The notes under the pieces: model-generated | Database searches by the model: none | Seen by the model: only the letters and a program-made list of their open reading frames with translations | Told to the model about the DNA's origin: nothing | From: a virus | Length of the DNA stretch: 20,894 nucleotides | Reading direction: 5' to 3' (one strand) | Virus record (IMG/VR): IMGVR_UViG_3300013137_000125 | Location: 1-20,894 of that record | Made by a program: the position numbers and the translations under genes | In this document: positions 767-16,664 of the stretch, in pieces | Layout: each line of letters opens with the position of its first letter | Position numbering within the stretch: the first letter of the stretch is position 1

Positions 767-778
767 TAAAGTATTGTT
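767..778 (-). promoter_or_regulatory. Late-type phage promoter, AACA(N6)TA
   Basis: Minus-strand AACA-ATACTT-TA followed by TATG. It lies about 20 nt upstream of the ATG at 747, just after the terminator hairpin of the preceding gene. It fits the AACA(N6)TW late promoter described for phage AR9 (from memory). Start of transcription is expected at or just after the TA. Confidence 0.6.
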
Positions 779-799
779 TCCGATTGATTTTCTCATTAA

Positions 800-831
800 A
801 AAATATAAAATGGATAGCCATTTTATATTTT
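800..831 (-). terminator. Hairpin terminator after the 115-aa gene
   Basis: A perfect 14-bp inverted repeat (800-813 with 818-831) with a 4-nt loop lies just beyond the TAA at 837. On the minus strand it is followed by a T-rich stretch. It separates the 837-2843 unit from the next promoter at 767-778. Confidence 0.75.
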
Positions 832-836
832 CTTCT

Positions 837-1184
837 TTATTGCTTATTTAAGATTTTTCTAGCTTTTTGTTCAAGTTTGTATTTCTTGATTCTCTTGCTA
901 AATGAGAGATCTTTGTTTGATGGACATACACACTTGTCTAATGTTCTTCCACATTTTGAACATGTGAAATGACTTGCTCTCTCTTTTGCAGATAGACCTT
1001 TTGTAAGTTTTTTCGCAGAGGCAAAGATTGTAGAACTACCTTCTTTTAGACGCTTACCAATTACTTTCAAAGCTGTAAAGCCTCCTACTAAAATAATTGT
1101 TAAAAGAATAAGATGTGATGCGGTCATCTCCATTAAACTAAGCTCGAATAATTCTTTCCATAATAATTGTAGATTTTCTAACAT
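837..1184 (-). CDS. Small membrane protein with four-cysteine zinc-ribbon-like motif
   Basis: 115 aa. The start at 1184 is set by TAAGGAGGAAGT just upstream. One clear transmembrane segment covers about residues 22-42 (LILLTIILVGGF core). A basic linker follows, then a compact cysteine cluster CxxC...CxC (C75, C78, C85, C87) that looks like a small zinc ribbon, then a very basic tail (KKYKLEQKARKILNK). The gene follows the 545-aa gene after 21 nt, so the two are co-transcribed, and it ends in a hairpin terminator. A membrane anchor carrying a cytoplasmic zinc module is a reasonable description. I do not recognise the family, and function is unknown. Zinc binding is inferred from cysteine spacing only. 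Confidence 0.8.
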   Translation of the reverse strand: MLENLQLLWKELFELSLMEMTASHLILLTIILVGGFTALKVIGKRLKEGSSTIFASAKKLTKGLSAKERASHFTCSKCGRTLDKCVCPSNKDLSFSKRIKKYKLEQKARKILNKQ

Positions 1185-1205
1185 TTTTACTTCCTCCTTA
1201 TATTT

Positions 1206-2843
1206 TTATATTTTTTCTAGACATTTAATTATTGGTTCATTCTCATCAGTTGTTCCAATACAAATTTTATAATCTGATGCATTTAGGTCACCCTCGTCGA
1301 CTAGGCCGATAAAGCCAGGGCCATATGCAGTGTATACTCTTAAGACATTTGTTCTCAGAATTCCAAGAATCATAGATGCTTTACTATAAAGATCTTGTTC
1401 ACTGCTAAAAGAGTAGATAGGAACTGTAAAATCTCTTTGAACTAGAGTAGGAACTCCCTCTACTAATTCCTCGACATAGTGGTTAATACTCATTGTTGCA
1501 AGGGCATTATCACTAAAATAGAATCTGTCTAACGAAATTGCTTTCAAGATAGATTCAAACAATGCTCTGTTTACGTAGATTGCTAAAGTGAAATCCTGTC
1601 CTTGTGAATCATTTACAACGACTGTAAGATTGTCATAATCAATTTCAACATTTGGTGAGAATAATTCTCCGTTTCTATTGAACATTTTCACAATCATTAG
1701 ATCTTGAACTTCAATATTGTGATCAATCATATAAGCATGGACTTTTAGAAAGTCTGACTTCAGATATTGCCACATATAAATATCTTTAATTGGTTGGTCA
1801 ATGTTATATGTGAAAATACTGTGGAAAACTTCTTGTCCGATTACTTGTTCCCCACTGCTAATCTCAAAATAAATTGCCGATTTTCGATTTAATTTAATGT
1901 TCTCAATTGCAATTGAGTAGAAACCTTCATCTTGCTCTGGAGCGGTACTTTGTAAGCTATAAATTGTATCTTGAGTAAGTGTTATGAATTTATCAAGATT
2001 GATTGACATAATAAATGAGTTTGGAAGCCAAGCTGAAACCTGAACTCTAAAATTGATTGTATACTCGCCTTCAGACATGCCTTCTCTTATGATTGAAGAT
2101 GGTGCATCAAGATCAAGAACATTAATAAGGAAATTTTCTTTTTCATTTACGAAGAAGCAATCCTTACCAGTAAGGGCATTAATTTTCTTTAAGATCATCT
2201 GCTCATTTGTTCCAATAGAGATTAGATAAAGTCTTAATTTATCCATATCAGATGTATTATTAACATCTAAACCGAGAATCTCAGCTATAATTTTTACATA
2301 TGATTTTGGTATCTCTGTATTAAGATATCTGTCATTTAAGAATTGGAACATACCAACTTGGAATCTTGATTTAATATAATATGCCAAATCCATGTTCTGA
2401 ACGAATTTATTTACAGTAATTCTGAAATTGAAATTTGTTGTGATATAATCATTTGTATAATAAATTGAATATTTATTATCTGGGTCAATTACAAGTTTCT
2501 TATAGTTTCGTCTCATATCTTTTCTAAGATATAAATTTGGACTAGAAAGATGCATTGACTTTTCCATCCCGCCGATTGGATCATCTAGACTAATACTTGG
2601 AGAAATTGCCATGTTCGGAAATTGAATTTTATTCAAATTCGTATTATGCTTATTATTTCTGTTTTGTGCTTGAACTGTTTCGGCCGTGTCAATATAGACT
2701 GATTTAAAGAAACCTCTTGGAAATTTTGATGTAATATGTTCTCTAATTTCGCCAGTTATTGAGCTAATTAAAGTAGATGCAGATGCAATAGATTGCACAA
2801 GTTTGATTTCATTCTCTGCTGGATATATAATCACTTTAATCAT
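1206..2843 (-). CDS. Large hypothetical protein, probable virion/tail structural protein (545 aa)
   Basis: The frame stays open to a TTG at 2876, but the start is taken as ATG 2843 (MIKVIIYPAENEIK). That ATG sits directly behind GGAAGGGAG. The upstream TTG lies inside the promoter AACAATAAATTA (2862-2873), so translation from it is unlikely. The protein has no membrane segments or signal peptide. It is beta-rich with many NxxF and YxxxxN stretches, in the style of large phage tail or baseplate proteins. No catalytic motif stands out. It is the first gene of a two-gene unit with the membrane protein at 837-1184. The structural role is inferred from composition and the late-type promoter, and the family is not recognised. 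Confidence 0.85.
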   Translation of the reverse strand: MIKVIIYPAENEIKLVQSIASASTLISSITGEIREHITSKFPRGFFKSVYIDTAETVQAQNRNNKHNTNLNKIQFPNMAISPSISLDDPIGGMEKSMHLSSPNLYLRKDMRRNYKKLVIDPDNKYSIYYTNDYITTNFNFRITVNKFVQNMDLAYYIKSRFQVGMFQFLNDRYLNTEIPKSYVKIIAEILGLDVNNTSDMDKLRLYLISIGTNEQMILKKINALTGKDCFFVNEKENFLINVLDLDAPSSIIREGMSEGEYTINFRVQVSAWLPNSFIMSINLDKFITLTQDTIYSLQSTAPEQDEGFYSIAIENIKLNRKSAIYFEISSGEQVIGQEVFHSIFTYNIDQPIKDIYMWQYLKSDFLKVHAYMIDHNIEVQDLMIVKMFNRNGELFSPNVEIDYDNLTVVVNDSQGQDFTLAIYVNRALFESILKAISLDRFYFSDNALATMSINHYVEELVEGVPTLVQRDFTVPIYSFSSEQDLYSKASMILGILRTNVLRVYTAYGPGFIGLVDEGDLNASDYKICIGTTDENEPIIKCLEKI

Positions 2844-2861
2844 CTCCCTTCCTTTTTCATA

Positions 2862-2873
2862 TAATTTATTGTT
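2862..2873 (-). promoter_or_regulatory. Late-type phage promoter, AACA(N6)TA
   Basis: Minus-strand AACA-ATAAAT-TA followed by TATG, 19 nt upstream of the ATG at 2843. It lies between the upstream terminator (2895-2920) and the ribosome site, as at 767-778. It gives a short leader that holds only the ribosome site. Confidence 0.65.
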
Positions 2874-2894
2874 CAAATAGGGATTCTTAAATAC

Positions 2895-2920
2895 AAAAAA
2901 AAAAGAAGCGGAAGGCTCCT
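2895..2920 (-). terminator. Intrinsic terminator after the 57-aa gene
   Basis: On the minus strand AGGAGC-CTTCC-GCTTCT (one G.T pair) is followed by a run of about ten T. It begins 4 nt after the TAA of the 57-aa gene (2925). Confidence 0.85.
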
Positions 2921-2924
2921 TGAA

Positions 2925-3098
2925 TTACTCCAAAACTTCCAATTTCTTTTCTAATTCAGAAATTTCTTCCTGAATTTGATTTTGTCTTGTGTCAACAGCA
3001 TCGAGTTGAGAAGTTGACATCCATTGACTTCTGTTATACAGGTCCATAGATTCATTTCTCAAAGCATCAATTTTGTTTTCGATTTCGACTTTACTCAT
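2925..3098 (-). CDS. 57-aa coiled-coil protein
   Basis: A short gene with a strong ribosome site (CGGAGGAAAAAATA before the ATG at 3098), ending in TAA directly before an intrinsic terminator. The protein starts MSKVEIENKIDALRNESMD and ends in a heptad-like helix (QIQEEISELEKKLEVLE), so a parallel coiled coil or helical hairpin is likely. It has no cysteines or membrane segment. A possible promoter (TATATATTATAA at 3144-3155) and a weak GAGAG/CTCTC hairpin lie in the leader. Unknown function; small phage proteins of this kind are often early host-directed factors or virion adaptors, but nothing here decides between them. Confidence 0.8.
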   Translation of the reverse strand: MSKVEIENKIDALRNESMDLYNRSQWMSTSQLDAVDTRQNQIQEEISELEKKLEVLE

Positions 3099-3143
3099 TA
3101 TTTTTTCCTCCGTGAGAGTTTAATTCTCTCTTTTTCTCTAATA

Positions 3144-3155
3144 TTATAATATATA
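3144..3155 (-). promoter_or_regulatory. AT-rich promoter candidate TATATATTATAA
   Basis: One of three identical 12-mers on the minus strand upstream of genes that lack an AACA motif (others at 8047-8058 and 16665-16676). It resembles the TATATTAC-like early element I recall for phiKZ, and it also contains a host-like -10 core. It lies 46 nt upstream of the 57-aa gene. Confidence 0.4.
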
Positions 3156-3177
3156 TCTAAAATTAGATAATTTACAG

Positions 3178-3234
3178 TTAAAATAAATCTAGATCTCTTT
3201 CGATATAATCTGGATATTTGATATGTCTTCCCAT
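3178..3234 (-). CDS. Putative 18-codon micro-ORF
   Basis: A near-perfect ribosome site (GGGAGGTAAATT) stands before ATG 3234, which opens an 18-codon frame (MGRHIKYPDYIERDLDLF) ending at TAA 3178. It lies between the terminator of the 150-aa gene and the 57-aa gene, so expression would need read-through of the hairpin. It could be a real micropeptide, a leader, or a ribosome-site remnant. Only the strong ribosome site supports it. Confidence 0.4.
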   Translation of the reverse strand: MGRHIKYPDYIERDLDLF

Positions 3235-3253
3235 AATTTACCTCCCTAAAATA

Positions 3254-3283
3254 AAAAGGAAAATGATTACTCATTTTCCTTTT
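3254..3283 (-). terminator. Terminator with the stop codon of the 150-aa gene in its loop
   Basis: A 13-bp perfect stem (3254-3266 with 3271-3283) has the TAA of the upstream gene as part of its 4-nt loop. On the minus strand a T run follows (TTTTTATTTT). The last codons of the gene form the 5' arm. Confidence 0.8.
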
Positions 3284-3719
3284 CGGTATCTGTTCTTCTA
3301 AACTGTTGTAAGCTTTCAACTTTCTTTTTGAGAGTTGCCAATCTTACTTTTTCATTATTTTGATTTATTGCAGCTGCAGTTAATTCTACATAGAAATCTT
3401 CAGTGATAAATCTCAATAATTCTTCTTCTGATCCGAAGTATTTCGTTGTAAGATATGCTCTATATGTTGAGGATATCTCATTGAAAACTTCGTATATACT
3501 AGCTGATATTACCTCTTCCAAATCTTCATCTCTAATAAAATCAGTATCCTTGACTAATTGAGTTTTGAAAATGGCAATGAAATAGTTTTTAATAATATTC
3601 TTTTTTCTAGTCATTAATAAATTCAGGAAGCCCAGATCTTGCTCCCAATTCATATAATTTTCTTCAGATTTTACTTGCAGAGTTTCCTCTTTTTTAGTTT
3701 CTTTCTTTTTTCCAAACAT
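3267..3719 (-). CDS. Hypothetical 150-aa acidic helical protein
   Basis: The chosen start is ATG 3719 behind AGAGGTGAAAAGT; a GTG three codons upstream overlaps that site and is less likely. The N-terminus is lysine-rich (MFGKKKETKKEE). The rest is helical with acidic patches (DFIRDEDLEEVISAS) and ends in a charged tail (RRTDTEKENE). No domain is recognised. It is the last gene of the run that starts at 6366, lies 11 nt after the primase stop, and ends in a hairpin that contains its stop codon. Position next to primase makes a replication-associated role possible, but this is only context. Confidence 0.8.
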   Translation of the reverse strand: MFGKKKETKKEETLQVKSEENYMNWEQDLGFLNLLMTRKKNIIKNYFIAIFKTQLVKDTDFIRDEDLEEVISASIYEVFNEISSTYRAYLTTKYFGSEEELLRFITEDFYVELTAAAINQNNEKVRLATLKKKVESLQQFRRTDTEKENE

Positions 3720-3730
3720 ACTTTTCACCT

Positions 3731-4738
3731 CTAGATTATTACTCGTTTGACCTTAATTCTATCAGCAGGAACACCGAAATCTTTGTCAAGAGTATTATAA
3801 TAGATTGTTAGAGGACTATTTTTTAAATAAACAGAATCTTGCTTCATTTCCTTAAAGAAATAAGTATCCACGTCGTTATCTGAATAGATAATTACGTTTA
3901 AATTTAAAAATCCCATTCTGATATAATGAGAAATTACTGCATTATAGCCTTTTCCGGCTGCGGCAGCAAAGATATACTTAGTTTCATCTACTTTATCTTT
4001 ATAGAAGTTTTGATAAACTCCAATAATGTCGAAGATACCTTCAGTCATTACTAAAGTAATTTCATCACTAAGGATATCAACAGCAGATTTAATATTATAT
4101 AATTTACTGCTTGTTGTTAGTTCCCCGCCAGACAGATCTAGATTGAAATATCTTTTCTTTTGTTGTCCAGTGATATCTCTAAAGATTACATGAGTTCCAT
4201 CAGAAGACAAAAATCCAATTGCATTAATAAAATCATATTGAGGTCTATTGTAAACGTCCAGCGGGACTCGAATATAATTATCAGCAAAGAATTGCGCAGC
4301 ATTTGTGATTGCTTTAAATTTATCGACAATTTCTTCATTTGTAAAACTTGTACCAAATCTAGCATTAAAATAATTGACTGCATTCACTGACGACGCGCTC
4401 TCAATTCTATTCAATACTGGATTTCTTCTATTTATTACTGTCTTTTGATTTGTAGATGTCTTGATTGACTTATTTGCTTCTATGATAGATGAGCTCAAAT
4501 CAGAATTAAAGATACCTAAATCTCGAAGAGTCTGAGTGTTTAGAACTCCAGCAGTTGTACACTTTTGGCAGTAGAACTTAAAAGGCGGAGTCATCTCGAT
4601 GTACATATGAGCATGAGTCTTATCTTTTTTGCTATCTCCGCAGTATGGACAACGGACTCTTACTTCTTTATGATTTGTTGTTTGATATGAAGGTTTCTTA
4701 CTTGTTAAAATCAACTTTCTAATATCTTCTGTATCCAT
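3731..4738 (-). CDS. DnaG-type DNA primase
   Basis: 335 aa. It should make RNA primers for phage DNA replication. The N-terminal zinc-binding domain is clear: CPYCGD (C30, C33), then YCQKC (C57, C60), the CxxC/CxxC form of DnaG-like primases. The TOPRIM catalytic core follows. Its acidic motif is MTEGIFDIIG (E233 in the TEG turn) and its DxD motif is YSDNDVDTYF (D287, D289). AAAAGKGYN around 258-266 lies between them, as in primases. It is shorter than bacterial DnaG (about 600 aa) and lacks a recognisable DnaB-binding C-terminal domain, which is common for phage primases. The start is supported by GAGGTGATTAA before ATG 4738. It sits mid-operon, 9 nt after the membrane-protein gene and 11 nt before the 150-aa gene. 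Confidence 0.92.
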   Translation of the reverse strand: MDTEDIRKLILTSKKPSYQTTNHKEVRVRCPYCGDSKKDKTHAHMYIEMTPPFKFYCQKCTTAGVLNTQTLRDLGIFNSDLSSSIIEANKSIKTSTNQKTVINRRNPVLNRIESASSVNAVNYFNARFGTSFTNEEIVDKFKAITNAAQFFADNYIRVPLDVYNRPQYDFINAIGFLSSDGTHVIFRDITGQQKKRYFNLDLSGGELTTSSKLYNIKSAVDILSDEITLVMTEGIFDIIGVYQNFYKDKVDETKYIFAAAAGKGYNAVISHYIRMGFLNLNVIIYSDNDVDTYFFKEMKQDSVYLKNSPLTIYYNTLDKDFGVPADRIKVKRVII

Positions 4739-4747
4739 TTAATCACC

Positions 4748-5470
4748 TCAAATATCTATACCTTGTAGTTTAAGGTATGTCTCTAATTTATGAGATCTTC
4801 TGCCTTTTTTAAGCCATCGATTTCTCTTAATATTAATTTGTTGTATGTCTATTTTATCATTAAAGTCAAAAAAGAAATCTTCAGTGATTGACTGATCATG
4901 AACTAGAGATCTCCAATCAACGAAGTCAGAGTACTCTTCAATTATTTCTTTTTCTAACTTTGTTGTTTCAAAAATGATATTCCAGTCCAGTCTATCTGGA
5001 AATCTCTCAATAATTTCTTTTGATGGATTTCTTGAAACTCTTTTCCAGTATTCCTTATTTGTATTTATTCTATCCATTAGTTCAAAATTAATTCTACCAA
5101 TCTTAGAATAAATTTCATGTCCGTCTAATACATTTTGATACTCAACAATTTCATCATCAGAAAGTGTTTTTACAATCCTCTTTTGAATAAGATATGCAAA
5201 ATCACCATACTTAGATATCATTGTTAATTTTACTTTCTTAGTCAATAGAAAATTTGTATAAACATATGCTGGAGCAATTAATATGATCATAAAAATAAAT
5301 TGGACTGTTTCCCAAAGCCAATCTAGGAAATCATCAGACCAATCTTCAATTGTATCAAACATTTCTCTTGCAACGTGATTCTTATGAAAGAAGAAAGCTA
5401 AGAGAAATGATACTGCACCAAAACTGCCAAATCCAGCCATAAACCAGAATAAAATTGGGTTAATTGTCAT
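4748..5470 (-). CDS. Two-helix membrane protein with C-terminal DW-type repeats
   Basis: 240 aa. Two hydrophobic helices (about residues 5-28 and 52-76) anchor the N-terminal third. The C-terminal part holds imperfect repeats of about 20 residues with the pattern I-x-x-F/Y-x-D-x-x-D-W (FPDRLDWNII, YSDFVDWRSL, FNDKIDIQQI), preceded by a more degenerate unit. Such tandem helical repeats are usually protein-binding surfaces. It ends at TGA 4748, the only TGA stop among the genes here; read through, it would end two codons later at TAA. Just 3 nt separate it from the gene upstream and 9 nt from the primase start. Function unknown. Confidence 0.82.
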   Translation of the reverse strand: MTINPILFWFMAGFGSFGAVSFLLAFFFHKNHVAREMFDTIEDWSDDFLDWLWETVQFIFMIILIAPAYVYTNFLLTKKVKLTMISKYGDFAYLIQKRIVKTLSDDEIVEYQNVLDGHEIYSKIGRINFELMDRINTNKEYWKRVSRNPSKEIIERFPDRLDWNIIFETTKLEKEIIEEYSDFVDWRSLVHDQSITEDFFFDFNDKIDIQQINIKRNRWLKKGRRSHKLETYLKLQGIDI

Positions 5471-5473
5471 AAT

Positions 5474-5902
5474 TTAACCTACATAGAATTCAATAGTTCT
5501 ATCAGACTTGTTAAATTCCCTTTCATCATAATATAGCGGCTCATTAACAGCAACCTGTGTTTTACCATATTCTACAAAACTTGTGCAAATATGAAATACT
5601 GCTTTCAGATATCCATAGGCTTCTACAAGTTCATTATATTCTTCAAACCATTCAGTTTGTTCTCTATCCTGATTTGTTAGTGGATATGGAGTATCCAATC
5701 GGTACTTTAGAATATCTTTCTCAAGATTATCTACAATTCTCTCGATATTATTAATATCTATCTGTTTATATTTATCCCATGTTCCTTGTAGGATAAAATC
5801 ATCTTCATCTAGAATTCTATATGCTGCAGAACTTCTTCCCAGTTCAGCCAATAAAATTCGTTTATTTTCTTCTCTTCCGTATATGTAAAGAGACCATCCC
5901 AT
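5474..5902 (-). CDS. Hypothetical 142-aa protein
   Basis: Start ATG 5902 behind GATAGGAGAAAT. The protein begins MGWSLYIYGREENKRILL and has an acidic, aromatic-rich middle (QTEWFEEYNELVEAYGYLKAVF), with alternating strands and helices and no membrane segment. It contains one cysteine and no visible catalytic motif. It is the second gene of the run 6366 to 3267, 11 nt after its upstream neighbour and 3 nt before the membrane-protein gene. I do not recognise a family. Confidence 0.8.
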   Translation of the reverse strand: MGWSLYIYGREENKRILLAELGRSSAAYRILDEDDFILQGTWDKYKQIDINNIERIVDNLEKDILKYRLDTPYPLTNQDREQTEWFEEYNELVEAYGYLKAVFHICTSFVEYGKTQVAVNEPLYYDEREFNKSDRTIEFYVG

Positions 5903-5913
5903 AAAAATTTCTC

Positions 5914-6366: not shown

Positions 6367-6381
6367 ATTTTCCTCCTAATA

Positions 6382-6411: not shown

Positions 6412-6425
6412 AGTAAATATATTTC

Positions 6426-7994
6426 TTAAATTAAGAATGCTAGATCGATTAACTCGTCTGCAACTTTTCCAACTTTAACCGTTGAATCAAATAATTCTTC
6501 GCCAGCATTATCTGTAAATACTGAGCTATAAGTTGTTGCAATAATTGCCGAGAGAGGTTTTTCAACTTCTTCAGAAAAGTTATTGTATTTTGCAGCAAAT
6601 AGTTCTTTGTATTTCTTTGAGTCTTGGATCAGTGGTCTAATTCTTTTACCTGAAATGTTCGTACGCTCTTTATGTTTTTCACAATGTGCGCTTAAAATCT
6701 GTGGCAAAAGAACAAACTTATGATTCTCTAAATATTTCTTTGTTGCAATTAGTAGATAGACATACTCATAGAATGTTAAAAACTTAATTGCCATCTTGTC
6801 TTGGAAATATTTGAAAGTAAGCATTGAGACAATTTTCTCTTGAATGCCATGTCTACTAATATATTTTATTGCAGATCTAATTTCATCATCAGAGACTTTA
6901 ACTCCAAAGTGAACTGGTATTTCCTTGAGTGTTTGCTTAATGCTTAGTTTGCGAGTCATATAAAGACCTTCATCTTTTCTGAGCATCTGGATTTCAAGAC
7001 GTTCGTATTCAGATGTTTCTTCATCATCGTCAGAATACTTTTCTGAGCTTCCTCCGCCGAGTGTTGTGAATTTGTGTTTAAATTTGTTCTGAAACAAGAA
7101 GTCAATCTGATTAATAATTACTGATTGGAAGAAGCTTACAACATTCTTGTCTTTGTCAATCGCCAGTTTAGGGATTGCATTAGTCAAGAGCTTTTTGTAA
7201 ATTTCAAGTGTCTCAGTATCTTTTGTGATGCCTTGATTCTTTGCAACCGCCCAGAATCTTTTATCAGAATAAACAGTCTTGCTAACACGACTAAGAGTTA
7301 GTTTATAGAGTTTGTTTCTAATTGCCGCGGCATTCTTTGCAAACTTCTCGAACAAATATGAGAAAATATTTGCATTGATTTCTTCAAATTGAAAATCTTC
7401 GAACTCATCGCTATCAAGTTCTTCCTGTGTTTTCGCAAACAGCGATTTATTGTAGGTAAAATAAACCGAGATGATTGGGATCATAATTCTGTAAAGATAG
7501 GCAATCTTAATCAGAGCTTTTGCGTGTTTATCGGAGAATTGTAATTCTTCGTTAATCTTTTTCTTTTTGTCTTTTGTTTCTTGGGTAATTTTATCTAAAT
7601 TCAGTGCATAATGATCCTCGACATATTTATCAATGGTCTTGATTAAGAGCTTATCATGAGAGTCGGTAATTGAATCGACCATCGTGATAAAGACATCATA
7701 TGTTGTCGCCTCATTAATCATAAGTTTTGATTTAACATTGATCATGTCGTAGAAAATAATTGCGAGGTCATCGTTGAACTTTTCGCCTTCATCTAGAAAC
7801 AATTCTTCATATGTTTCTATAATCATAGGTACAAGGTTCTTGAAATTTCTCTTTGAATTCATTTCAAATAAGTTGTAGACATCTAATAATTCTTGCCCAA
7901 AGATTCTATCAAATGCAACCCCAAAGTTGTTCCCGCCGTTAGTTGAGAAGAAATTAAACTCACTGCCAGCTTCGATTTGGATTTTATTAGTCAT
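6426..7994 (-). CDS. Large hypothetical helical protein (522 aa)
   Basis: Start ATG 7994 behind GAGGAGGTATTTT. Almost entirely alpha-helical in appearance and charged, with a lysine-rich patch near residues 140-150 (KDKKKKINEE), a low-complexity acidic loop at about 315-330 (GGGSSEKYSDDDEETSEYE) and a basic segment at 440-460 (CEKHKERTNISGKRIRPL). No membrane segments and no zinc motif. The leader contains a stable 13-bp hairpin (8016-8045), with a TATATATTATAA element just upstream. Length and helical nature recall regulatory or virion-internal proteins of jumbo phages, but I cannot assign a family. Confidence 0.82.
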   Translation of the reverse strand: MTNKIQIEAGSEFNFFSTNGGNNFGVAFDRIFGQELLDVYNLFEMNSKRNFKNLVPMIIETYEELFLDEGEKFNDDLAIIFYDMINVKSKLMINEATTYDVFITMVDSITDSHDKLLIKTIDKYVEDHYALNLDKITQETKDKKKKINEELQFSDKHAKALIKIAYLYRIMIPIISVYFTYNKSLFAKTQEELDSDEFEDFQFEEINANIFSYLFEKFAKNAAAIRNKLYKLTLSRVSKTVYSDKRFWAVAKNQGITKDTETLEIYKKLLTNAIPKLAIDKDKNVVSFFQSVIINQIDFLFQNKFKHKFTTLGGGSSEKYSDDDEETSEYERLEIQMLRKDEGLYMTRKLSIKQTLKEIPVHFGVKVSDDEIRSAIKYISRHGIQEKIVSMLTFKYFQDKMAIKFLTFYEYVYLLIATKKYLENHKFVLLPQILSAHCEKHKERTNISGKRIRPLIQDSKKYKELFAAKYNNFSEEVEKPLSAIIATTYSSVFTDNAGEELFDSTVKVGKVADELIDLAFLI

Positions 7995-8015
7995 AAAATA
8001 CCTCCTCAGAAAATT

Positions 8016-8045
8016 AATGAAAGAAAGTTCAGACTTTCTTTCATT
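8016..8045 (-). terminator. 13-bp perfect hairpin between the 8099 and 7994 genes
   Basis: AATGAAAGAAAGT pairs with ACTTTCTTTCATT around a 4-nt loop. On the minus strand it is followed by TAATTTTC; on the plus strand by TTTTT. It may end transcription from the gene at 8099. If the AT-rich element at 8047-8058 is a promoter, it would instead form a stable hairpin at the 5' end of the 7994 mRNA. Confidence 0.6.
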
Positions 8046-8046
8046 T

Positions 8047-8058
8047 TTATAATATATA
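8047..8058 (-). promoter_or_regulatory. AT-rich promoter candidate TATATATTATAA
   Basis: The second of three identical 12-mers, 53 nt upstream of the 522-aa gene and immediately before the hairpin at 8016-8045. No AACA(N6)TA site is present in this gap. Confidence 0.4.
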
Positions 8059-8098
8059 TTTATTACATTTTTAATCTTTTAATAAAAAATTTTTTCTT

Positions 8099-8920
8099 TT
8101 AATCATTCATTAAACTGCGCTTTGCTCTTCTTGCACTAATTTTAGCACGAGGAGCTTTTCTTGTTAAGATATTTCCAACAGGTTTCGGTCTATTTTTCTT
8201 AGCATTTTCAATAAATTCTTGGCGCATTTTTTGCCTTCTAGTGTCTCGATCGTTGTCAATGACTTTTGGAGCTTTAGCTTTTTCATGCTTTGCAAGAGCA
8301 TAAATCTGAACAATCTTATCTGGATCTGCTATTTGATAAAGAAGATTTCTTTCCTCAAGTGCATTCATCTTCTTCCCAAACTTATTGATGTAGTTATCAG
8401 TTAAACAAAATCCATCTAGAAGATATCTTGCTGCAATATATGTTGACTTTTCATATCCAAGTGCTTCAACTGGGTTTCTAGTAGTCGGCGGCGTAGTTAA
8501 GGCAGTCATTGGAAGTTTCTCTGCAAACTCGTCAATTATCAAATCGTCATGATAATAAACATATGCGTATGTGAAAATGAATGAAGGTGAGTTTGAAAAC
8601 ATTCTGGTATTTCTAGTAGAGTATCTTTGTGTTGGATCGTTGTCAATTCTAAATAAAACATCATAGAAAAGTTTATTTGATCGGAAATCTTCCGAAGGAA
8701 CTCTCACATGAAACAAAAGATCTCCATTTGAGTAGACATATGGAACTGCATAGAATTGATTTCTGTATGAGTTTAGAATCTTAATAAATGCTGAATTCAG
8801 ACCTGCTTTAATTACCTTACGAGATGCCAGGAACGCAGATCCTCGTCATCGATATGGATTATCGATGTATTGTCTTATGCTTATTTTTATAGCATTTTTT
8901 TTCTTTACAGGAAGTACCAT
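8099..8920 (-). CDS. Hypothetical protein with in-frame TGA at codon 25
   Basis: Read from ATG 8920 (ribosome site GTGAGGTGGT, spacing 8), the frame gives 24 codons (MVLPVKKKNAIKISIRQYID then NPYR), then TGA at 8846-8848. It then runs on without interruption for 249 codons to TAA 8099. Both sides look protein-coding and share the same frame, and there is no ATG, GTG or TTG with a good site directly after the TGA; the first plausible restart is TTG 8716. The C-terminal 60 residues are very basic (RKAPRAKISARRAKRS). The cause could be a nonsense mutation (CGA to TGA), read-through, or a sequence error. A late-type promoter lies 35 nt upstream of the ATG. No family is recognised; a nucleic-acid-binding or virion role fits the basic tail. 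Confidence 0.65.
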
Positions 8921-8954
8921 ATCCCATACCACCTCACTTTCTTAGGAATTTCTA

Positions 8955-8966
8955 TAAATTATTGTT
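8955..8966 (-). promoter_or_regulatory. Late-type phage promoter, AACA(N6)TA
   Basis: Minus-strand AACA-ATAATT-TA, extended as TATAG. It drives the gene starting at 8920. Its 15-nt extended sequence is identical to the plus-strand promoter at 9001-9012, and the two face away from each other. Confidence 0.65.
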
Positions 8967-9000
8967 CTATATATTTTATCTTTTTAGCTTTCGAAGGGAA

Positions 9001-9012
9001 AACAATAATTTA
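9001..9012 (+). promoter_or_regulatory. Late-type phage promoter of the free-standing endonuclease
   Basis: AACA-ATAATT-TA followed by TAGGGGG. Only 16 nt separate it from the ATG at 9029, a leader that holds just the ribosome site. It is an exact inverted copy of the promoter at 8955-8966. Confidence 0.65.
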
Positions 9013-9028
9013 TAGGGGGTCTGCTAAA

Positions 9029-9934
9029 ATGGGAAGAAGTTTAACAAATAATGAGTTTTTAGAAAAATTATCTGAAAGAAGAGGAAGCGAGTATGTTCCT
9101 CTCGAGTTATATAAGAATACCACAACAAAAATAAAAGTTAAACATACTTGTGGAAATGAAATACTAATTAGACCAAATGATTTATTATCTGGCAAAAATT
9201 GTCCAATATGTTCTTTAAAAAGTAAAAAAAGTAAATTGAAAAAAGGGAAGAAAATCTTTCAAGAAGAAATAAATAAACTTTACAATAATGAATATGAAGT
9301 CTTATCAGAATACCATAACTATCTAGAAAAAGTAAAAATAAAACATAAAAATTGTGGAAATGAGTATGAAATAATACCAGGCAATTTTTTAAAAGGACAG
9401 AAACTATGTCCTTTTTGTATTAGTAAAAATAGTAATAAACAAAAAACATCTGAAGAATTTAAAAATCAAATTAAAGACTTGGTCGGCAATGACTATATTC
9501 TAATAAGTGACTATAAAAATGTAAAAACTAAGATTAAAATCCGTCATAATATTTGTCACCATGAATATGATGTATTGCCTACAAATTTTCTAAAGGGTAG
9601 AAGATGTCCACTTTGTTGGAGTTCTCATGGAGAAGATATTATAAGAAAATATCTTCAAGAACATAATCTATCTTATATACCTGAAAAAACCTTTCCAGAT
9701 CTAAAAGATAAGAGTTTTTTAAGATTTGATTTTTATCTAGAAAAAATAAATACGTTAATAGAATATGACGGAGAGTATCATTATATTCCTTTAAAGGGTC
9801 AAGATTATCTAGAGAAACAACAATACAGAGACCAGTTAAAGAATAAATATTGTAAGGACAAAAATATAAAACTGATTAGAATAGCATATTGGGACCAGAA
9901 GAATATAAAAAATATTCTAGATAAAAATTTATAA
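9029..9934 (+). CDS. Free-standing EDxHD (Vsr-like) homing endonuclease with three zinc modules
   Basis: 301 aa. Start ATG 9029 follows ATAGGGGGTCTG; a start 53 codons upstream would lie before the promoter and is rejected. Three repeated treble-clef-like modules bind DNA. Each has the pattern H..C...N-x-F/L-L-x-G...C-P-x-C: H39/C41/C58/C61, H106/C109/C127/C130, H173/C176/C193/C196. The C-terminal domain matches Vsr-fold EDxHD endonucleases such as I-Bth0305I: E202 in GEDIIRKYL, D234 in RFDFYL, IEYDGEYHY with H251, D268 in YRDQLKNKYC, then the strand IKLIRI. It is the only gene on this strand for about 6 kb around and sits between the chaperonin and the gene with the internal TGA. A homologue lies in intron 2 (17993-18766). 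It looks like a separately inserted mobile gene. Confidence 0.9.
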   Translation: MGRSLTNNEFLEKLSERRGSEYVPLELYKNTTTKIKVKHTCGNEILIRPNDLLSGKNCPICSLKSKKSKLKKGKKIFQEEINKLYNNEYEVLSEYHNYLEKVKIKHKNCGNEYEIIPGNFLKGQKLCPFCISKNSNKQKTSEEFKNQIKDLVGNDYILISDYKNVKTKIKIRHNICHHEYDVLPTNFLKGRRCPLCWSSHGEDIIRKYLQEHNLSYIPEKTFPDLKDKSFLRFDFYLEKINTLIEYDGEYHYIPLKGQDYLEKQQYRDQLKNKYCKDKNIKLIRIAYWDQKNIKNILDKNL

Positions 9935-9938
9935 TAAT

Positions 9939-9970
9939 AAATAACAAACTCGGGTATGAGTTTGTTATTT
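9939..9970. terminator. Bidirectional hairpin terminator
   Basis: A 13-bp perfect stem (AAATAACAAACTC with GAGTTTGTTATTT, 6-nt loop) is followed on the plus strand by TTCTTT and on the minus strand by TATTATTATAAATTTTT. It lies between the convergent endonuclease (stop 9934) and chaperonin (stop 9975) genes and probably ends both transcripts. Confidence 0.8.
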
Positions 9971-9974
9971 TTCT

Positions 9975-11768
9975 TTATCTTACTCTTTGATCGATTTGAT
10001 CAGTAATATTAAGATTTAGTGTAATCATTTGATTAGATGTTGCAATAATACCAATAATTGAGATGACACTTCTTAGAATTTGAATATCAGTATCAACAGA
10101 GTTTATAACTTCTGTCTCGCCCATATTCTCGTATTTGTGCAATTTTAGATTATAGAATTTGGATTCTTTGATACAAGTTCCCACGACTTCTTCAACTTGT
10201 TCTTCATTAAAATAACTGTTATTCAGAACATTTTTATAACTTTCCAAAAATGCATCAGAGAAAATCCAGATAAATTCCATAAAGAATTGACCAATATTTT
10301 CTACTGGGATATAGGAATACTTTTCAGATAATATTCCAACTAACTCTTCATCTTTTTCATTGAGAATTTTTGGAACCATAATATTACCACCAGGGATAAT
10401 ACCGTGTTTAATAGCTGATTTTGCTGCAAGAATTGCATCTTCAAATAATCTTTCGCGAGTCATTCTTTCAGTCAATGATTTGCCGGCAACGTGAATTACT
10501 GCAGTTGAGTCAGTTAGTGTTGAAATTCTTCTCTTTAATTGGTAGATATCAAATTGCAAATCCATATTTGGTTCTTCAATTTGTAACTTTTCTTGTAGTT
10601 TAGCTCTAAGCTCTACAACTTTGGCTTCTACTTTTTCATTCTTTTCTTCCTTACCAATAATCTGTGTTGTTTTCTTAGTAATGAACGCCTTCTGAGCTCT
10701 GCCAATAAATCTTGCTGGATTCTGCATAATTTCAGCTGGCTTATTCTCTAACTTCTTGAATACTTCGGCACCAACTAAGAGTGCTAGATCTTCTATGTCA
10801 TATCTTCCAGTTTCAGTGACTAGTTCCATATCAACAGCAGTAAAGACAATCTCAGGATCTTTCTTGATACTCTTATGTTTTAGTCTATTAGTCTTTAAGA
10901 ATGTTTTAACATCTTCGTCATATCCGTTTGCAACGAATACTAACTCGGCTTTTTGAGTTCCACAAACTTCTCCAATAATTGGGGCGATAATTGCAGGGAT
11001 ATCATTATATGTTAAGAAAGCGTCAGTAATAAAGATTCTTGGTTCTTGATCATGAATTATTTTTTTATTTTCATAGCCCTCAGCAAAATAGTCTTCAATA
11101 TAACCATCACGCCATTCAAGACCACGTTTAATTTCATAACTGTCTTTTTCTTTTTTATCCATAATGTCTGTTGAAACGAAACCAAACTCACCAATTTTTT
11201 CGTAGATCTCTTTGATCAATTTACCAGTTTGTCTATCATTATTTGTCGAGATCATAGCAACTGTTTCGACTTCATGAAGATCTTTAGATACTGGTCTTGC
11301 TACCTTTTTAAGTTCTTCCTCAAGATAGACTGAAATATCATTTAGAATATCTAGAACATCCTTTGGCGCTACTTTATTAAATAATTCTAACTCTGGAGCA
11401 GTCAATGTGCTATAAAGTGCTTCAGCAACAACAATTGCCGAGGTTGATCCATCACCAACGGTCATCACTTGATTACTTGCAACTTGACGAACTAAATCAA
11501 GGATAGTTCTCGATGCTTCATCATTGAAATTAATTTTATTCATTAAGTCATATCCGTCTTTTGTTGCAAAGTGTTTCATTTCTCTATCTTGGATAATTGT
11601 TGTCGTTCCATATGGTCCGAGTGTTCCGCATAAAATTTTTGAGATAATTTGTAAGGTTGCTCTAATTTTTGCTTTTGTATTCTTCTCTTCGACGACATTT
11701 GCCATAATTAGTGAGTCGACACTATTTTCTTTACAGATATCTATATTACTTTTTTCTCTTAGTTTCAT
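9975..11768 (-). CDS. Divergent phage GroEL-like chaperonin
   Basis: 597 aa, a little longer than GroEL (about 548). ATP-site signatures are present in order: TLGPYG at 49-54 (GroEL TLGPKG), KDG with D71 (GroEL D52), GDGST with D106 (GroEL catalytic D87 in GDGTT), FEDA with D444 (GroEL D398) and IPGGN with G460-G461 (GroEL AGGG). Apical and intermediate domains fill the space between. It has an N-terminal extension of about 20 residues and lacks the GGM-rich C-terminal tail. No GroES gene is seen. AR9 and some other jumbo phages encode similar chaperonins that can act without a co-chaperonin. The start ATG 11768 has its AAAGGAG site inside the upstream gene and overlaps it by 23 nt. It is the last gene of the baseplate operon, so it probably folds virion proteins. 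Confidence 0.93.
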   Translation of the reverse strand: MKLREKSNIDICKENSVDSLIMANVVEEKNTKAKIRATLQIISKILCGTLGPYGTTTIIQDREMKHFATKDGYDLMNKINFNDEASRTILDLVRQVASNQVMTVGDGSTSAIVVAEALYSTLTAPELELFNKVAPKDVLDILNDISVYLEEELKKVARPVSKDLHEVETVAMISTNNDRQTGKLIKEIYEKIGEFGFVSTDIMDKKEKDSYEIKRGLEWRDGYIEDYFAEGYENKKIIHDQEPRIFITDAFLTYNDIPAIIAPIIGEVCGTQKAELVFVANGYDEDVKTFLKTNRLKHKSIKKDPEIVFTAVDMELVTETGRYDIEDLALLVGAEVFKKLENKPAEIMQNPARFIGRAQKAFITKKTTQIIGKEEKNEKVEAKVVELRAKLQEKLQIEEPNMDLQFDIYQLKRRISTLTDSTAVIHVAGKSLTERMTRERLFEDAILAAKSAIKHGIIPGGNIMVPKILNEKDEELVGILSEKYSYIPVENIGQFFMEFIWIFSDAFLESYKNVLNNSYFNEEQVEEVVGTCIKESKFYNLKLHKYENMGETEVINSVDTDIQILRSVISIIGIIATSNQMITLNLNITDQIDQRVR

Positions 11769-12285
11769 GCTTGAATGCTCCTTTTGTCAGTGCAAAACCC
11801 ATTTCATCAGGACGAAGCTCAAGGTCTTTCTTTACCATCAAAATTTGTTGCTTAATTGTCTCGTCTGAGTAGTCAACCAAGAATAAAATTCTATTAGCAA
11901 TTTTTGTAATAAACATACCAGTATTAGTGTTTCTGCTAAATAGGTTCTTGAAATCTTTATCTAGTGCTTTTTTAGTTATTAAGATTGCATTATTAACTCG
12001 AACAAAGGTCTTTTCTAATGGAACTCTATTCATACTTTTATATTCATTTGAGAAATCATTATAAAAAAGATATCTTAATGTTGCGTCTTCCTTAGACTCG
12101 AATAATCTTTTTTCTAGAAATTTAATTCTCTGCTTCAGTTCTATAATTGTATTCTTGTGGTTCTTGGAACCATAGAATTCGCCTTTATATTCTCTTTGTC
12201 TTTTTTCTTCTCTTTGTCTTTTTTCTTTCTGTTTGAAATGTTTCTTTATCTCTTTCTTGAGATGTTTCTTTATTTCCGCTTTCAT
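11746..12285 (-). CDS. Basic hypothetical protein with repeated lysine/arginine-rich N-terminus (179 aa)
   Basis: Start ATG 12285 behind GAGGAGAGATATT. Residues 1-35 are strongly basic and internally repeated (KKHLKKEIKKHF, then EKRQREEKRQRE), forming a charged helix. A coiled-coil stretch follows at about 45-65 (IIELKQRIKFLEKRL). The remainder is a mixed globular region with a hydrophobic helix (GMFITKIANRILFLVDY). The end overlaps the chaperonin start by 23 nt and supplies its ribosome site, so the two are translationally coupled. Unknown family; nucleic-acid or scaffold binding is suggested by charge only. Confidence 0.82.
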   Translation of the reverse strand: MKAEIKKHLKKEIKKHFKQKEKRQREEKRQREYKGEFYGSKNHKNTIIELKQRIKFLEKRLFESKEDATLRYLFYNDFSNEYKSMNRVPLEKTFVRVNNAILITKKALDKDFKNLFSRNTNTGMFITKIANRILFLVDYSDETIKQQILMVKKDLELRPDEMGFALTKGAFKHETKRKK

Positions 12286-12297
12286 AATATCTCTCCT

Positions 12298-12651
12298 CTA
12301 CGGTAATATAAACGTCAGTATATCCTCTTCCTGATAAATCTCCTGACAAATCTTTGACATTTCTCTTTTTAAATTTTCAATAATTATATCTTCGAGAAAC
12401 AGATGAGATTTTACCTTAAAAATTTTCATCTCGTTCTCTTTGCCGTTAGCAGCAATACCCAATTTTTCTACAATAAATTTACCCTTAAATGAGGGAAGAA
12501 ATGATACCTTGTTAACTGGAACTACTGTCTTAAGTACGTTTAAAAAATCATAAAGATTTGAAATATACCCGATCCCTTCTATATAATTTTGGGCGTTCAG
12601 TACTTCATCATCTGAGATCTTTGTCACGTTAGCGCAGGCTTTAATTAACAT
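12298..12651 (-). CDS. Hypothetical 117-aa protein
   Basis: Start ATG 12651, spaced 9 nt from AAAGGAGGT; another ATG 8 nt upstream is out of frame and too close to the site. The protein begins MLIKACANVTKISDDEVL, is of mixed helix/strand type, and ends in EEDILTFILP. No membrane segment or known motif. Twelve nucleotides separate it from the next gene in the operon between baseplate genes and chaperonin. A role in virion assembly is inferred from position only. Confidence 0.8.
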   Translation of the reverse strand: MLIKACANVTKISDDEVLNAQNYIEGIGYISNLYDFLNVLKTVVPVNKVSFLPSFKGKFIVEKLGIAANGKENEMKIFKVKSHLFLEDIIIENLKREMSKICQEIYQEEDILTFILP

Positions 12652-12666
12652 AGTATCATACCTCCT

Positions 12667-12942
12667 TTATTTTCTGTTGTTTCTGATGTCTTCATTTAAT
12701 TTAATTTTCGCTTTCTTTAGATGAGTCAAAAGTGGAATTTCTGTATTTAAAACTTCGCTAAGAGATAGTTTACCTTCAAATAAATCCATAAGATAAACTA
12801 TCTCCATAGCCTTTTCATCTTTTACAGCTTCAAGTTTAAAGAAATTCTCTTCGATTTTTTTTAACTTGGCATTTAATTCCTCTTTTGTATCTGTCTCTTT
12901 TAGTATTGGGCTTTCTCGAAGATTAGTGTAAAAAGTATGTTT
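12667..12942 (-). CDS. Open frame in the -1 frame after the 468-aa gene, start unresolved
   Basis: The frame is open for 91 codons from after a TGA at 12943-12945 to TAA 12667, overlapping the last 43 nt of the 468-aa gene in its -1 frame. From about codon 16 it reads as an ordinary soluble helical protein (ETDTKEELNAKLKKIEENFF ... THLKKAKIKLNEDIR). No ATG, GTG or TTG with a ribosome site lies near its beginning; the first in-frame ATG (12807) would give only 46 aa and cut into the helix. It may be made by -1 frameshifting from the 468-aa gene, by a non-standard start, or the window may contain an indel. No canonical slippery heptamer is visible in the overlap. Confidence 0.55.
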   Translation of the reverse strand, partial: KHTFYTNLRESPILKETDTKEELNAKLKKIEENFFKLEAVKDEKAMEIVYLMDLFEGKLSLSEVLNTEIPLLTHLKKAKIKLNEDIRNNRK

Positions 12943-14306
12943 TCAACTGAAAGAGGGACTTCATTAACTTCATGTCCGCATTCAGAGCATTTGATATTTT
13001 TAATTGAGTAGGTAATTCTATTTTCGTCAATTCTTTCATCCACAGCATCTTTAAATTCATTGGCATCGTCAATTGGAAGAGTGTCAATTACCCTTAAGAT
13101 TGCTGGCTTTTTATATTCTTCGAAATATGTACTTCCATCCTTAGATGGAATTAAAAGTCTGTTCACATAAAGCATATATACGATATTCTTGCTATCTTTG
13201 TCAATAGTCTTTTCAGGGACTGTCTTCAAGATTTCAAGAAGATCCATTAAACTTGGTGTTCTTAATTCAACAATAATGTTTGTTTGTGAAAGTTGAATCG
13301 CTTGATTTTTACCAATTAGCGAGAATTCTCTCATCTTTTCAGCAGAACTTGCTTCTCTAGAAACTTTATCGATTAGCTTTTTCATATGTTCACTATCGGT
13401 TGTTTTGATTAAGTTTCCATGATTTACTTTGTAATCTCTTTCAGCTTCACAAGCCGGGCAAGTAAATCTGAATGAACCTTCATTTGGGAATGTTGACGCA
13501 TAAATACCATAGTAGAATGTTTCCATGTCTTCAACAGAGGTATTTTGTAGCCAGTTTTCAAAATTCATTTTGCCAATTGAGGTATCATAAATCTTTTCCC
13601 AAACAGTATAAAACAAGCTTTTTTGTCTTTCATAGATATTAAGATTTTCTCTCAGGATATCCATAATGTCTTTGTGAACTAACGGAAGAACTTTTGCCAT
13701 ATAACCAGACTGTGCTGCCACAATTTGGAAAGCGGCTTTATTTCCATATAAAGCACTTCTTAGATCTCTTTCTTTATCAAGTTCATTTTTATTAATAACC
13801 TTGATTTTATTGAGATCAACAACTTTTGCCTTGCTCCTTGGCTTTTCTTCTTCAATAGGTTCTTGTTCCTGCTTAGCAATTCTTTCTTCAATTTCGTCTA
13901 GATCGCTAAATAGATCAACTTCAACTTCTTCTTCAAGTTTTGGAAGATCTAGATCTGCCATTGGAATAGCGGGACCAATTGCTTCTTTTTCTTCTTTATT
14001 TTTTTGAAGCATCTTTTTAGCTAAACTTAGAGTTGTTTTGGCAACTGCTTCTTCTTTAATCTCAGCTGCTGGCGCTATTACAACTTCTTCAACTTTTACT
14101 TCCTCTTTTACTACTGCCGCAGGTTTTGGTTCAACAACTTGTGGTTCAGGGATTACTTCCCCCTTTGAGTTAATTGCAACTGGAATTGGTGCTGGCATAT
14201 TTTTTAGCATTTCTGCTTCAAGTGTTGATAATGTCTTAACATCACCAAAACTTTCGCCTGGTTTTAGATACATTGTCTGACCAGGTAGTGGTTTCTTATT
14301 TTCCAT
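12900..14306 (-). CDS. Zinc-ribbon protein, possible baseplate hub or assembly protein (468 aa)
   Basis: Start ATG 14306 behind AAAGGAGAGAAG. Residues 1-165 are low complexity: proline-, alanine- and glutamate-rich, probably disordered. The C-terminal 300 residues form a folded domain in which two CxxC knuckles far apart in sequence (C283/C286 in CPAC; C440/C443 in CSEC) can make one zinc ribbon with a large helical insertion between. The arrangement and the ending CSECGHEVNEVPLSVENILF resemble small zinc-ribbon baseplate proteins of T4-type phages (gp26/gp51 family), an uncertain match from memory. It lies two genes after the gp25-like wedge gene in the same operon, which supports a baseplate role. 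The -1 frame after its stop is open (see 12667-12942). Confidence 0.8.
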   Translation of the reverse strand: MENKKPLPGQTMYLKPGESFGDVKTLSTLEAEMLKNMPAPIPVAINSKGEVIPEPQVVEPKPAAVVKEEVKVEEVVIAPAAEIKEEAVAKTTLSLAKKMLQKNKEEKEAIGPAIPMADLDLPKLEEEVEVDLFSDLDEIEERIAKQEQEPIEEEKPRSKAKVVDLNKIKVINKNELDKERDLRSALYGNKAAFQIVAAQSGYMAKVLPLVHKDIMDILRENLNIYERQKSLFYTVWEKIYDTSIGKMNFENWLQNTSVEDMETFYYGIYASTFPNEGSFRFTCPACEAERDYKVNHGNLIKTTDSEHMKKLIDKVSREASSAEKMREFSLIGKNQAIQLSQTNIIVELRTPSLMDLLEILKTVPEKTIDKDSKNIVYMLYVNRLLIPSKDGSTYFEEYKKPAILRVIDTLPIDDANEFKDAVDERIDENRITYSIKNIKCSECGHEVNEVPLSVENILFTLIFEKAQY

Positions 14307-14320
14307 TTTTCTTCTCTCCT

Positions 14321-14539
14321 TTATTCTTGTTTTAAACTTGGTTTCTTAAACTTTATTTCTACTGACACTAATTGTCCGTCTTCATATTCGATCCACTCAA
14401 CTCCATCAACACTGCATAGATTTATACCCATATAATTTGGAATTATACCGATATCAAGCGGAGCTCCTCCAAGGAATTCTCCATTGTTTGATCTATTAAT
14501 TATTTCAGTAGTTGTTAAATAATTTCTCTTTGTCTTCAT
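14321..14539 (-). CDS. Hypothetical 72-aa protein
   Basis: ATG 14539 follows a modest site (AGGTTAGAAG) 8 nt after the wedge gene stop; the frame ends at TAA 14321. The protein begins MKTKRNYLTTTEIINRSNNG and carries GGAPLDIGIIPNYMG and a beta-rich C-terminus (VSVEIKFKKPS). It resembles a small head-to-tail or baseplate accessory protein by position between two baseplate-type genes, but no family is recognised. Confidence 0.75.
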   Translation of the reverse strand: MKTKRNYLTTTEIINRSNNGEFLGGAPLDIGIIPNYMGINLCSVDGVEWIEYEDGQLVSVEIKFKKPSLKQE

Positions 14540-14547
14540 CTTCTAAC

Positions 14548-14967
14548 CTAATGTGTTTCATTTAATATAGTAAGCTCTCCACTTTTTTCATAAAGTAAGA
14601 AATTGCTATTTATTGACTGAGAGTTTAATTTTGAGGAAACGCTTATACCAAGCATATTTCTTCCTTCATTAATAATTCCAGTTTCGTCACTTACAATCTC
14701 GACATTGATATATACTCCGCTAATATCTGGAATATATCTCGCAATTTGTTGAGAAAGTTCTGATTTGATAATATCAATCTGAGTCTGATCGAGAAGGTCA
14801 AATTGATATTTTTCAATGTTCATACCAAAAGAAGGAGTATTTGGATAATTCCCCTTTCTTGATAAAAGAATATTACGAATATTCAGAATGATTGCATCAA
14901 CATCTGTATATTCAGATGCCTTAATAAAATTGCTTTGTTGGAACATCCAATCTCTGTATTTTGCCAT
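14548..14967 (-). CDS. gp25-like baseplate wedge protein
   Basis: The start is taken at ATG 14967 (MAKYRDWMFQQ), which has AAAGGAGAACAAA at the right spacing; an ATG 17 codons upstream has no site. The 139-aa product follows the T4 gp25/lysozyme-like wedge pattern: an N-terminal helix with AIILNIRNILLSRKGNYPNT, then PSFGMNIEKYQFD, a helix IIKSELSQQIARYIP, and beta strands VYINVEIVSDE. In the family the segment around ARYIP usually reads EPR; here it reads IPD. gp25-like proteins join the wedge to the tail tube and sheath in contractile tails. First gene of the operon that ends with the chaperonin, behind an AACA promoter at 14998-15009. This is the best evidence that the phage is a myovirus. 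Confidence 0.88.
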   Translation of the reverse strand: MAKYRDWMFQQSNFIKASEYTDVDAIILNIRNILLSRKGNYPNTPSFGMNIEKYQFDLLDQTQIDIIKSELSQQIARYIPDISGVYINVEIVSDETGIINEGRNMLGISVSSKLNSQSINSNFLLYEKSGELTILNETH

Positions 14968-14997
14968 TTTGTTCTCCTTTCTTAATATGTTCTCATA

Positions 14998-15009
14998 TAA
15001 ATATATGTT
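14998..15009 (-). promoter_or_regulatory. Late-type phage promoter, AACA(N6)TA
   Basis: Minus-strand AACA-TATATT-TA followed by TATG, 31 nt upstream of the wedge gene start. It should drive the whole 14967-9975 operon. It lies back to back with the plus-strand promoter at 15058-15069. Confidence 0.65.
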
Positions 15010-15057
15010 GAGGGGCATCTATTCTTTTAAATTTTAAGAACTAAGTGAATAAATGGA

Positions 15058-15069
15058 AACAATTAATTA
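15058..15069 (+). promoter_or_regulatory. Late-type phage promoter, AACA(N6)TA
   Basis: AACA-ATTAAT-TA followed by TATG, 24 nt upstream of ATG 15094. It drives the two-gene plus-strand unit. Confidence 0.65.
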
Positions 15070-16631: not shown

Positions 16632-16664
16632 AGTTAGTGTGCACTCCTTTCTTTTATTACATAT

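Follow-up and report, generated by a model that had tools for sequence, protein, structure and literature searches.

Bacillus phage AR9 has a non-virion RNA polymerase (nvRNAP) that recognises its promoters through the template strand, where it requires uracil. A 20,894-nt stretch of the IMG/VR virus record IMGVR_UViG_3300013137_000125 (the window, which is the whole stretch analysed here) carries six copies of the motif AACA-N6-TA just upstream of gene starts. The locus raises the question of whether these sites are late promoters of the AR9 type, which follow the consensus AACA-(6N)-T-A/G and are read by the nvRNAP with its subunit gp226 (PMC5312081, PMC9209446), and whether they belong to a uracil-containing genome.

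Judged from sequence comparisons, the six sites are very probably late promoters read by an nvRNAP. The explanation that best accounts for the data as a whole, in which we place good confidence, is an AR9-type late promoter system that would be re-tuned for, or tolerant of, thymine. Gene starts were called with a simple script. Two relatives, G002 (31 kb) and G001 (a 333-kb contig), were retrieved through their gp226-like and RNA polymerase genes. Their gp226 homologues are 73% (G002) and 47% (G001) identical to that of the window, and the three sequences are referred to as the clade. A scan of genome contigs revealed no further members, and scans of viral sequences yielded only two contigs of the clade.

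Putative late promoters in the window

The presumed transcription start (+1) is the last base of AACA-N6-TA, and leaders are measured from it.

767-778, minus strand: putative late promoter AACAATACTTTA(TATG); 20-nt leader to the ATG at 747 of gene 1-747
2862-2873, minus strand: putative late promoter AACAATAAATTA(TATG); 19-nt leader; gene 1206-2843, orthologue of AR9 g251
8955-8966, minus strand: putative late promoter AACAATAATTTA(TAG); 35-nt leader; g227-like gene 8099-8920
9001-9012, plus strand: putative late promoter AACAATAATTTA(TAG); 17-nt leader; endonuclease gene 9029-9934
14998-15009, minus strand: putative late promoter AACATATATTTA(TATG); 31-nt leader; gp25-like baseplate gene 14548-14967
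15058-15069, plus strand: putative late promoter AACAATTAATTA(TATG); 25-nt leader to 15094; gene 15094-15783, orthologue of AR9 g242

All six sites listed by the initial annotation were found in place. Its spacing of 16-35 nt to the ATG agrees with the 17-35 nt measured from the presumed +1 to the curated start codons. The sites had also been described as following a terminator or lying in a divergent gap, as is evident in the divergent pairs 8955/9001 and 14998/15058 and in a terminator-like hairpin (2903-2921) upstream of the 2862 site; an A/T-rich hairpin upstream of the 767 site is visible in the sequence and was missed by the hairpin scan. The 9001 site repeats the 8955 promoter exactly over 15 bases in inverted orientation, 34 bp away.

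Equivalent sites precede orthologous genes. The G002 orthologue of gene 1-747 carries AACAATAGTTTATATG at the equivalent place, and the motif is kept before g251 orthologues (score 19.7 in G002, 22.6 in G001 and 9.0 in AR9). The g227 orthologue is preceded by a motif scoring 19.1 in G001 and by AACAATTATTTATATG in G002. Among g242 orthologues, the G001 motif scores 12.8 and AR9 g242 has AACAATATAATA. AR9 g232, the orthologue of the gene behind the 14998 site, carries AACATTTCAATA; the 14998 site has its AR9 counterpart in P232, which was mapped as a late promoter with differential RNA-seq (PMC5312081).

Could such sites arise by chance in A/T-rich intergenic DNA? A+T makes up 68% of the window, and AACA-N6-TA by itself is common, with 34 occurrences against 21 expected from shuffled sequences. 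The longer form AACA-N6-TATA occurs seven times (1.9 expected), and six of the seven copies lie 25-50 nt before curated starts; the seventh (3796-3809, minus strand) falls within the primase gene. Since 1.6% of strand-positions are in the 25-50 nt zone, the probability of at least six of seven is about 1e-10, with the reservation that the motif was selected by eye after the sequence had been inspected. Sigma-70-like sites show no such excess (86 versus 84 in shuffles). Position, strand, spacing and tetramer controls speak against chance, as does genome-wide enrichment in the two relatives described below, and we consider this explanation scarcely credible.

The motif in related genomes

A genome-wide search for the motif relative to gene starts, a check suggested by the initial annotation, revealed enrichment upstream of starts in the relatives. 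In G002, 14 of 45 AACA-N6-TA sites lie no further than 80 nt ahead of a start (2.4 expected), as do 90 of 481 in G001 (19.5 expected). AR9, run through the same pipeline as a positive control, gave 72 upstream sites out of 274 (12 expected). The G001 and G002 tests are independent of the window, which removes the bias of choosing a motif after looking. Expectation maximisation run on G001 upstream regions with no preset pattern converged on gAACAATttATTATA. At a score of 12, a G001 weight matrix identified 82 sites; 67 of these lie 15-90 nt ahead of a start on the same strand (3.1 expected). Few motif sites are on the opposite strand, and the number of upstream sites stayed at 11 or below in 500 rotations of the G001 gene starts.

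When all 256 tetramers were ranked in the pattern X-6N-T(A/G) at gene starts, AACA came first in AR9, BpSp, LPJP1, Machias, phiR1-37, G001, G002 and the window. Spacer length peaks at n=6; secondary signals at n=3 and n=8 probably stem from TTATA, in which TA is repeated, and from A/T-rich flanks. Sites of the form AACA-N6-T(A/G) show strong computed enrichment 25-60 nt ahead of genes in phiR1-37, LPJP1, BpSp and Machias, with 48 sites at gene starts in phiR1-37 (NC_016163) against 6.5 expected. Earlier work had found no late consensus for phiR1-37 (PMC5312081), and bioinformatics was described in a 2020 review as unable to predict such promoters (PMC7598289). The motif is a candidate late-promoter consensus for these four phages.

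The initial annotation had matched the sites to an AR9 consensus AACA(N6)TW. The AACA(N6) part of that match stands; the TW ending does not, as the published AR9 consensus ends in T-A/G (PMC5312081). In the window and G002 the motif extends to AACAATwwwTTATATG, and the clade consensus AACAATwwwTTATA(TG) holds about 6 bits beyond AACA/TR, compared with about 2 in AR9.

Late and early promoter classes

G001 has a second, distinct motif, TTtATATATTAT-6N-G, and three sites in the window resemble early promoters of AR9.

8042-8061, minus strand: early (virion RNA polymerase-type) promoter AAATATATATTATAAAAATG; 67 nt ahead of the gene for the gp226 homologue; AR9 early matrix score 23.2
3139-3158, minus strand: probable early promoter AGATATATATTATAATATTA; 60 nt ahead of gene 2925-3098; score 14.2 (at a score of at least 14, shuffles yield 0.07 sites per window)
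16660-16679, minus strand: possible early promoter GTTTATATATTATAAATATG; 48 nt ahead of the open reading frame (ORF) 16434-16631; score 8.9

The sequence AAATATATATTATAAAAATG is an exact AR9 early sequence, and shuffles give no site scoring 23 or more. The gp226 genes of AR9 and G002 are also preceded by an early promoter.

The AACA motif keeps different company. In G001 it precedes orthologues of the tail sheath, portal, terminase, prohead protease and virion RNA polymerase beta and beta' genes, as well as those of UvsX and several virion proteins; the five nvRNAP genes all lack it close upstream. Shine-Dalgarno sequences start from motif position 14 onward, which fits transcription beginning at position 12, the AR9 start, rather than at position 20. 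Together, the separate early motif, the late-type gene set, the correspondence with P232 and the placement of the Shine-Dalgarno sequences argue for late promoters read by the nvRNAP. Late and early classes are here told apart from gene class in G001 and from orthology to AR9 P232 rather than from timing. The AR9 promoter logic proposed by the initial annotation is thus sustained by membership of the AR9 group, a gp226 homologue in the window, distinct early and late motifs, and a late motif at the g232 orthologue.

Alternatively, the six sites might be early promoters for the virion polymerase, as a clade version of the AR9 early element AAATATATATTAT. The motif is a long, conserved, AT-rich element that has the same base as the AR9 early consensus at 10 of 13 positions, which tells against a late assignment, and in G001 an A-rich tract lies upstream of it, as in AR9 early promoters. 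The G at +20 of early promoters, however, is not conserved at the AACA motif and is missing from the six sites in the window, and ribosome-binding sites already begin at motif position 14. Zero annotated early promoters are among the AR9 sites that match the G001 matrix. The early reading was dropped in view of the separate G001 early motif, the exact AR9 early promoter before gp226 in the window, and the occurrence of the AACA motif before late-type genes and before no nvRNAP gene; we regard it as improbable.

The gp226 homologue and the DNA base

A gp226-like subunit, the presence of which the initial annotation had proposed to check, is encoded in the window.

6426-7994, minus strand: gp226-like nvRNAP promoter-specificity subunit, 522 aa, with Arg246 at the alignment position of AR9 V206 (phrog_25005, 9e-39; 7s01_A, 5e-25; fold 7um0_A)

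The match to 7s01_A, the AR9 specificity subunit in the PDB, was obtained by sequence. A Foldseek search with the AlphaFold model, which is moderate (pLDDT 66), retrieved 7um0_A (6.9e-14), followed by the phiKZ nvRNAP chain 8que_B (5.8e-5). In LPJP1, the gp226 homologue (L004 2650-4272) is annotated as two ORFs and looks split or interrupted.

In AR9, gp226 V206 and gp105 R363 help to form the pocket for the -10 base (PMC9209446). V206 shuts out the methyl group of thymine and is reported to be absolutely conserved in uracil phages, and the V206G mutant accepts thymine, such that this position controls the choice between uracil and thymine (PMC9209446). The residue is a valine in all eight other sequences aligned (AR9, BpSp, SA1, Madawaska, Machias, phiR1-37, LPJP1 and the metagenome contig L060) and an arginine in all three clade members (R246 in the window). 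Further base-contacting residues differ in the clade, with F or Y in place of I207 and V or M in place of Y210; in AR9, gp226 contacts template bases -10 and -9 through residues that are changed here. At R363 of gp105, the six phages tested have arginine and G001 has threonine; gp105 K375 varies and is uninformative.

G001 additionally encodes a dUTPase, an enzyme that keeps uracil out of DNA (PMC5122711).

G001:C1:118331-118738 (within L123), minus strand: trimeric-type dUTPase gene (PF00692, 1.5e-16; best PDB match 3h6x_A, 7e-30)

All five dUTPase motifs are recognisable by eye in the translation. The gene sits between the gp226 and g227 orthologues and has weak late-motif matches upstream. 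The PF00692 family was not found in AR9, LPJP1, BpSp, phiR1-37, Machias or Madawaska. Given the changes at V206, I207 and Y210 and the G001 dUTPase, recognition is probably no longer dependent on uracil, and the phage probably has ordinary thymine DNA. In sequence records, uracil appears as T. The uracil-containing genome suggested by the initial annotation is accordingly disfavoured. Thymine DNA transcribed by a relaxed or re-tuned late-promoter enzyme appears the somewhat better prospect for the clade, and a uracil genome a doubtful one.

Other searches do not bear on this choice. Searches for ThyA, ThyX, dUTPase_2, uracil-DNA glycosylase and tubulin gave no hit in any of these phages and did not discriminate among them. 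The uracil-DNA glycosylase inhibitor (UGI), a feature of only the Bacillus members of the group, was found neither in G001 and G002 nor in four of the six other phages. Its absence was discarded as evidence on DNA chemistry because most uracil phages, non-Bacillus ones included, lack UGI as well (PMC10303552).

Proposed mechanism and its main alternative

Under the favoured explanation, the virion polymerase would fire AT-rich early promoters of the AAATATATATTAT-6N-G type, including that of gp226, and gp226 would be switched on first. The gp226 protein would then join the nvRNAP core and bind AACA and its A/T-rich extension, and transcription would begin with the final base of AACA-N6-TA or close to it, immediately before the ribosome-binding site. 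AR9 may manage with a short motif because uracil marks phage DNA, a role for uracil discussed as a proposal in PMC7598289; in the clade, the longer motif, with its additional 6 bits or so, may stand in for that mark. The more specific scenario is evenly poised: a thymine-DNA branch of AR9-type phages would have kept the AACA promoter and lost the need for uracil, with the -10 pocket rebuilt around arginine and a promoter of about 15 conserved bases replacing uracil in telling phage from host DNA.

The principal competing explanation is that the promoters are AR9-like and need uracil in a uracil-DNA phage, with Arg246 providing another way to exclude thymine or hold the base. The isolated members of the group that were examined contain uracil DNA or are presumed to do so (PMC9209446, PMC10303552), and G+C content is low. 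G001 retains orthologues of AR9 g212, g242, g261, g260 and g227, families listed as exclusive to uracil-DNA phages (PMC10303552) and paired with those listed by protein length and coordinates; g227- and g242-like genes are also present in the window. Yet V206 and gp105 R363 of the -10 uracil pocket are both replaced, G001 has the dUTPase that its six relatives lack, and the AR9 V206G enzyme shows that uracil versus thymine is controlled at the V206 position (PMC9209446). We rate this explanation as possible and distinctly the less likely.

Besides the retained uracil-phage families and the resemblance to the early consensus, further observations weigh against a thymine-adapted late system or qualify it. 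Over 52 reciprocal best hits between AR9 and G001, the G001 motif and the AR9 late motif are weakly associated (p=0.10), so that the argument for the late class rests on the named genes. The G001 orthologues of the major capsid gene, g078 and g264 have no strong proximal motif. The extra bits are intermediate (4.1-5.1) in LPJP1, Machias and phiR1-37, and the extension alone is no sharp divider of the clade. The dUTPase gene is present in G001 and not in the window fragment or in G002. Finally, trees did not order the clade relative to phiR1-37, so that V206R may or may not be derived.

A lineage with the AR9 promoter core, altered uracil-sensing residues and a dUTPase makes the gain or loss of the uracil requirement directly testable, and also tests whether promoter length can replace uracil as a mark of phage DNA. 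If the proposal is true, the thymine branch would parallel in nature what was engineered in the V206G enzyme.

Comparison with known phages

The clade shares with AR9 the AACA core, the six-base spacer, TA at the start site, short leaders, a gp226-like subunit with an early promoter before its gene, the g232-g225 gene order, and orthologous promoters at g232, g242 and g251. It differs in the extended consensus, in the changed V206, I207 and Y210 residues and, in G001, in the dUTPase. PBS1, BpSp, LPJP1, the Staphylococcus phages Machias and S6, and Yersinia phage phiR1-37 also have gp226 homologues, and AACA-N6-TR ranks first among gene-start motifs in LPJP1, BpSp, Machias and phiR1-37. Unlike the clade, all of the AR9-group phages tested keep V206 and gp105 R363 and have no dUTPase.

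In phiKZ, gp68 of the nvRNAP is a distant structural relative of the specificity subunit, as the 8que_B match indicates. The TATATG end of the window and G002 sites recalls the phiKZ TATG, and phiKZ has thymine DNA, as proposed for the clade. In contrast, phiKZ late promoters consist of TATG only, with no AACA element (PMC7598289), and phiKZ-like phages are set apart in the polymerase tree with 100/100 support. In the same tree, the window groups with AR9, LPJP1, Staphylococcus jumbo phages and phiR1-37.

Other features of the window

Gene content and synteny identify the window as a piece of the genome of an AR9-group jumbo phage. A minus-strand series follows the AR9 gene order g232-g225, with counterparts of g232 (baseplate wedge), g231, g228 (GroEL), g227, gp226 and g225 (primase). 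A virion RNA polymerase beta subunit gene, split by introns, is also present.

3731-4738, minus strand: DNA primase, orthologue of AR9 g225 (synteny)
8099-8920, minus strand: gene similar to AR9 g227 and phiR1-37 g244 (phrog_20045), with an in-frame TGA at codon 25
9029-9934, plus strand: endonuclease gene (phrog_559-type)
9975-11768, minus strand: GroEL-like chaperonin, orthologue of AR9 g228 (synteny)
16721-20894, minus strand: virion RNA polymerase beta subunit (sequence matches), intron-split, with the 5' end lost at the contig end

The TGA in the g227-like gene results from a stop-bearing 6-base insertion (NPYR*RGSAF, the asterisk marking the stop, versus NPYRGSAF in G002), possibly a mutation or an assembly error. 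Between this gene and GroEL lies the free-standing phrog_559-type endonuclease gene (region 8952-9934), which has its own putative late promoter. The virion RNA polymerase beta gene is interrupted at least twice, by a group I intron (RF00028, 19322-19554, E 2e-21) and by a stretch containing an endonuclease ORF at 17993-18766; its AR9 orthologue, g189, is likewise in several pieces.

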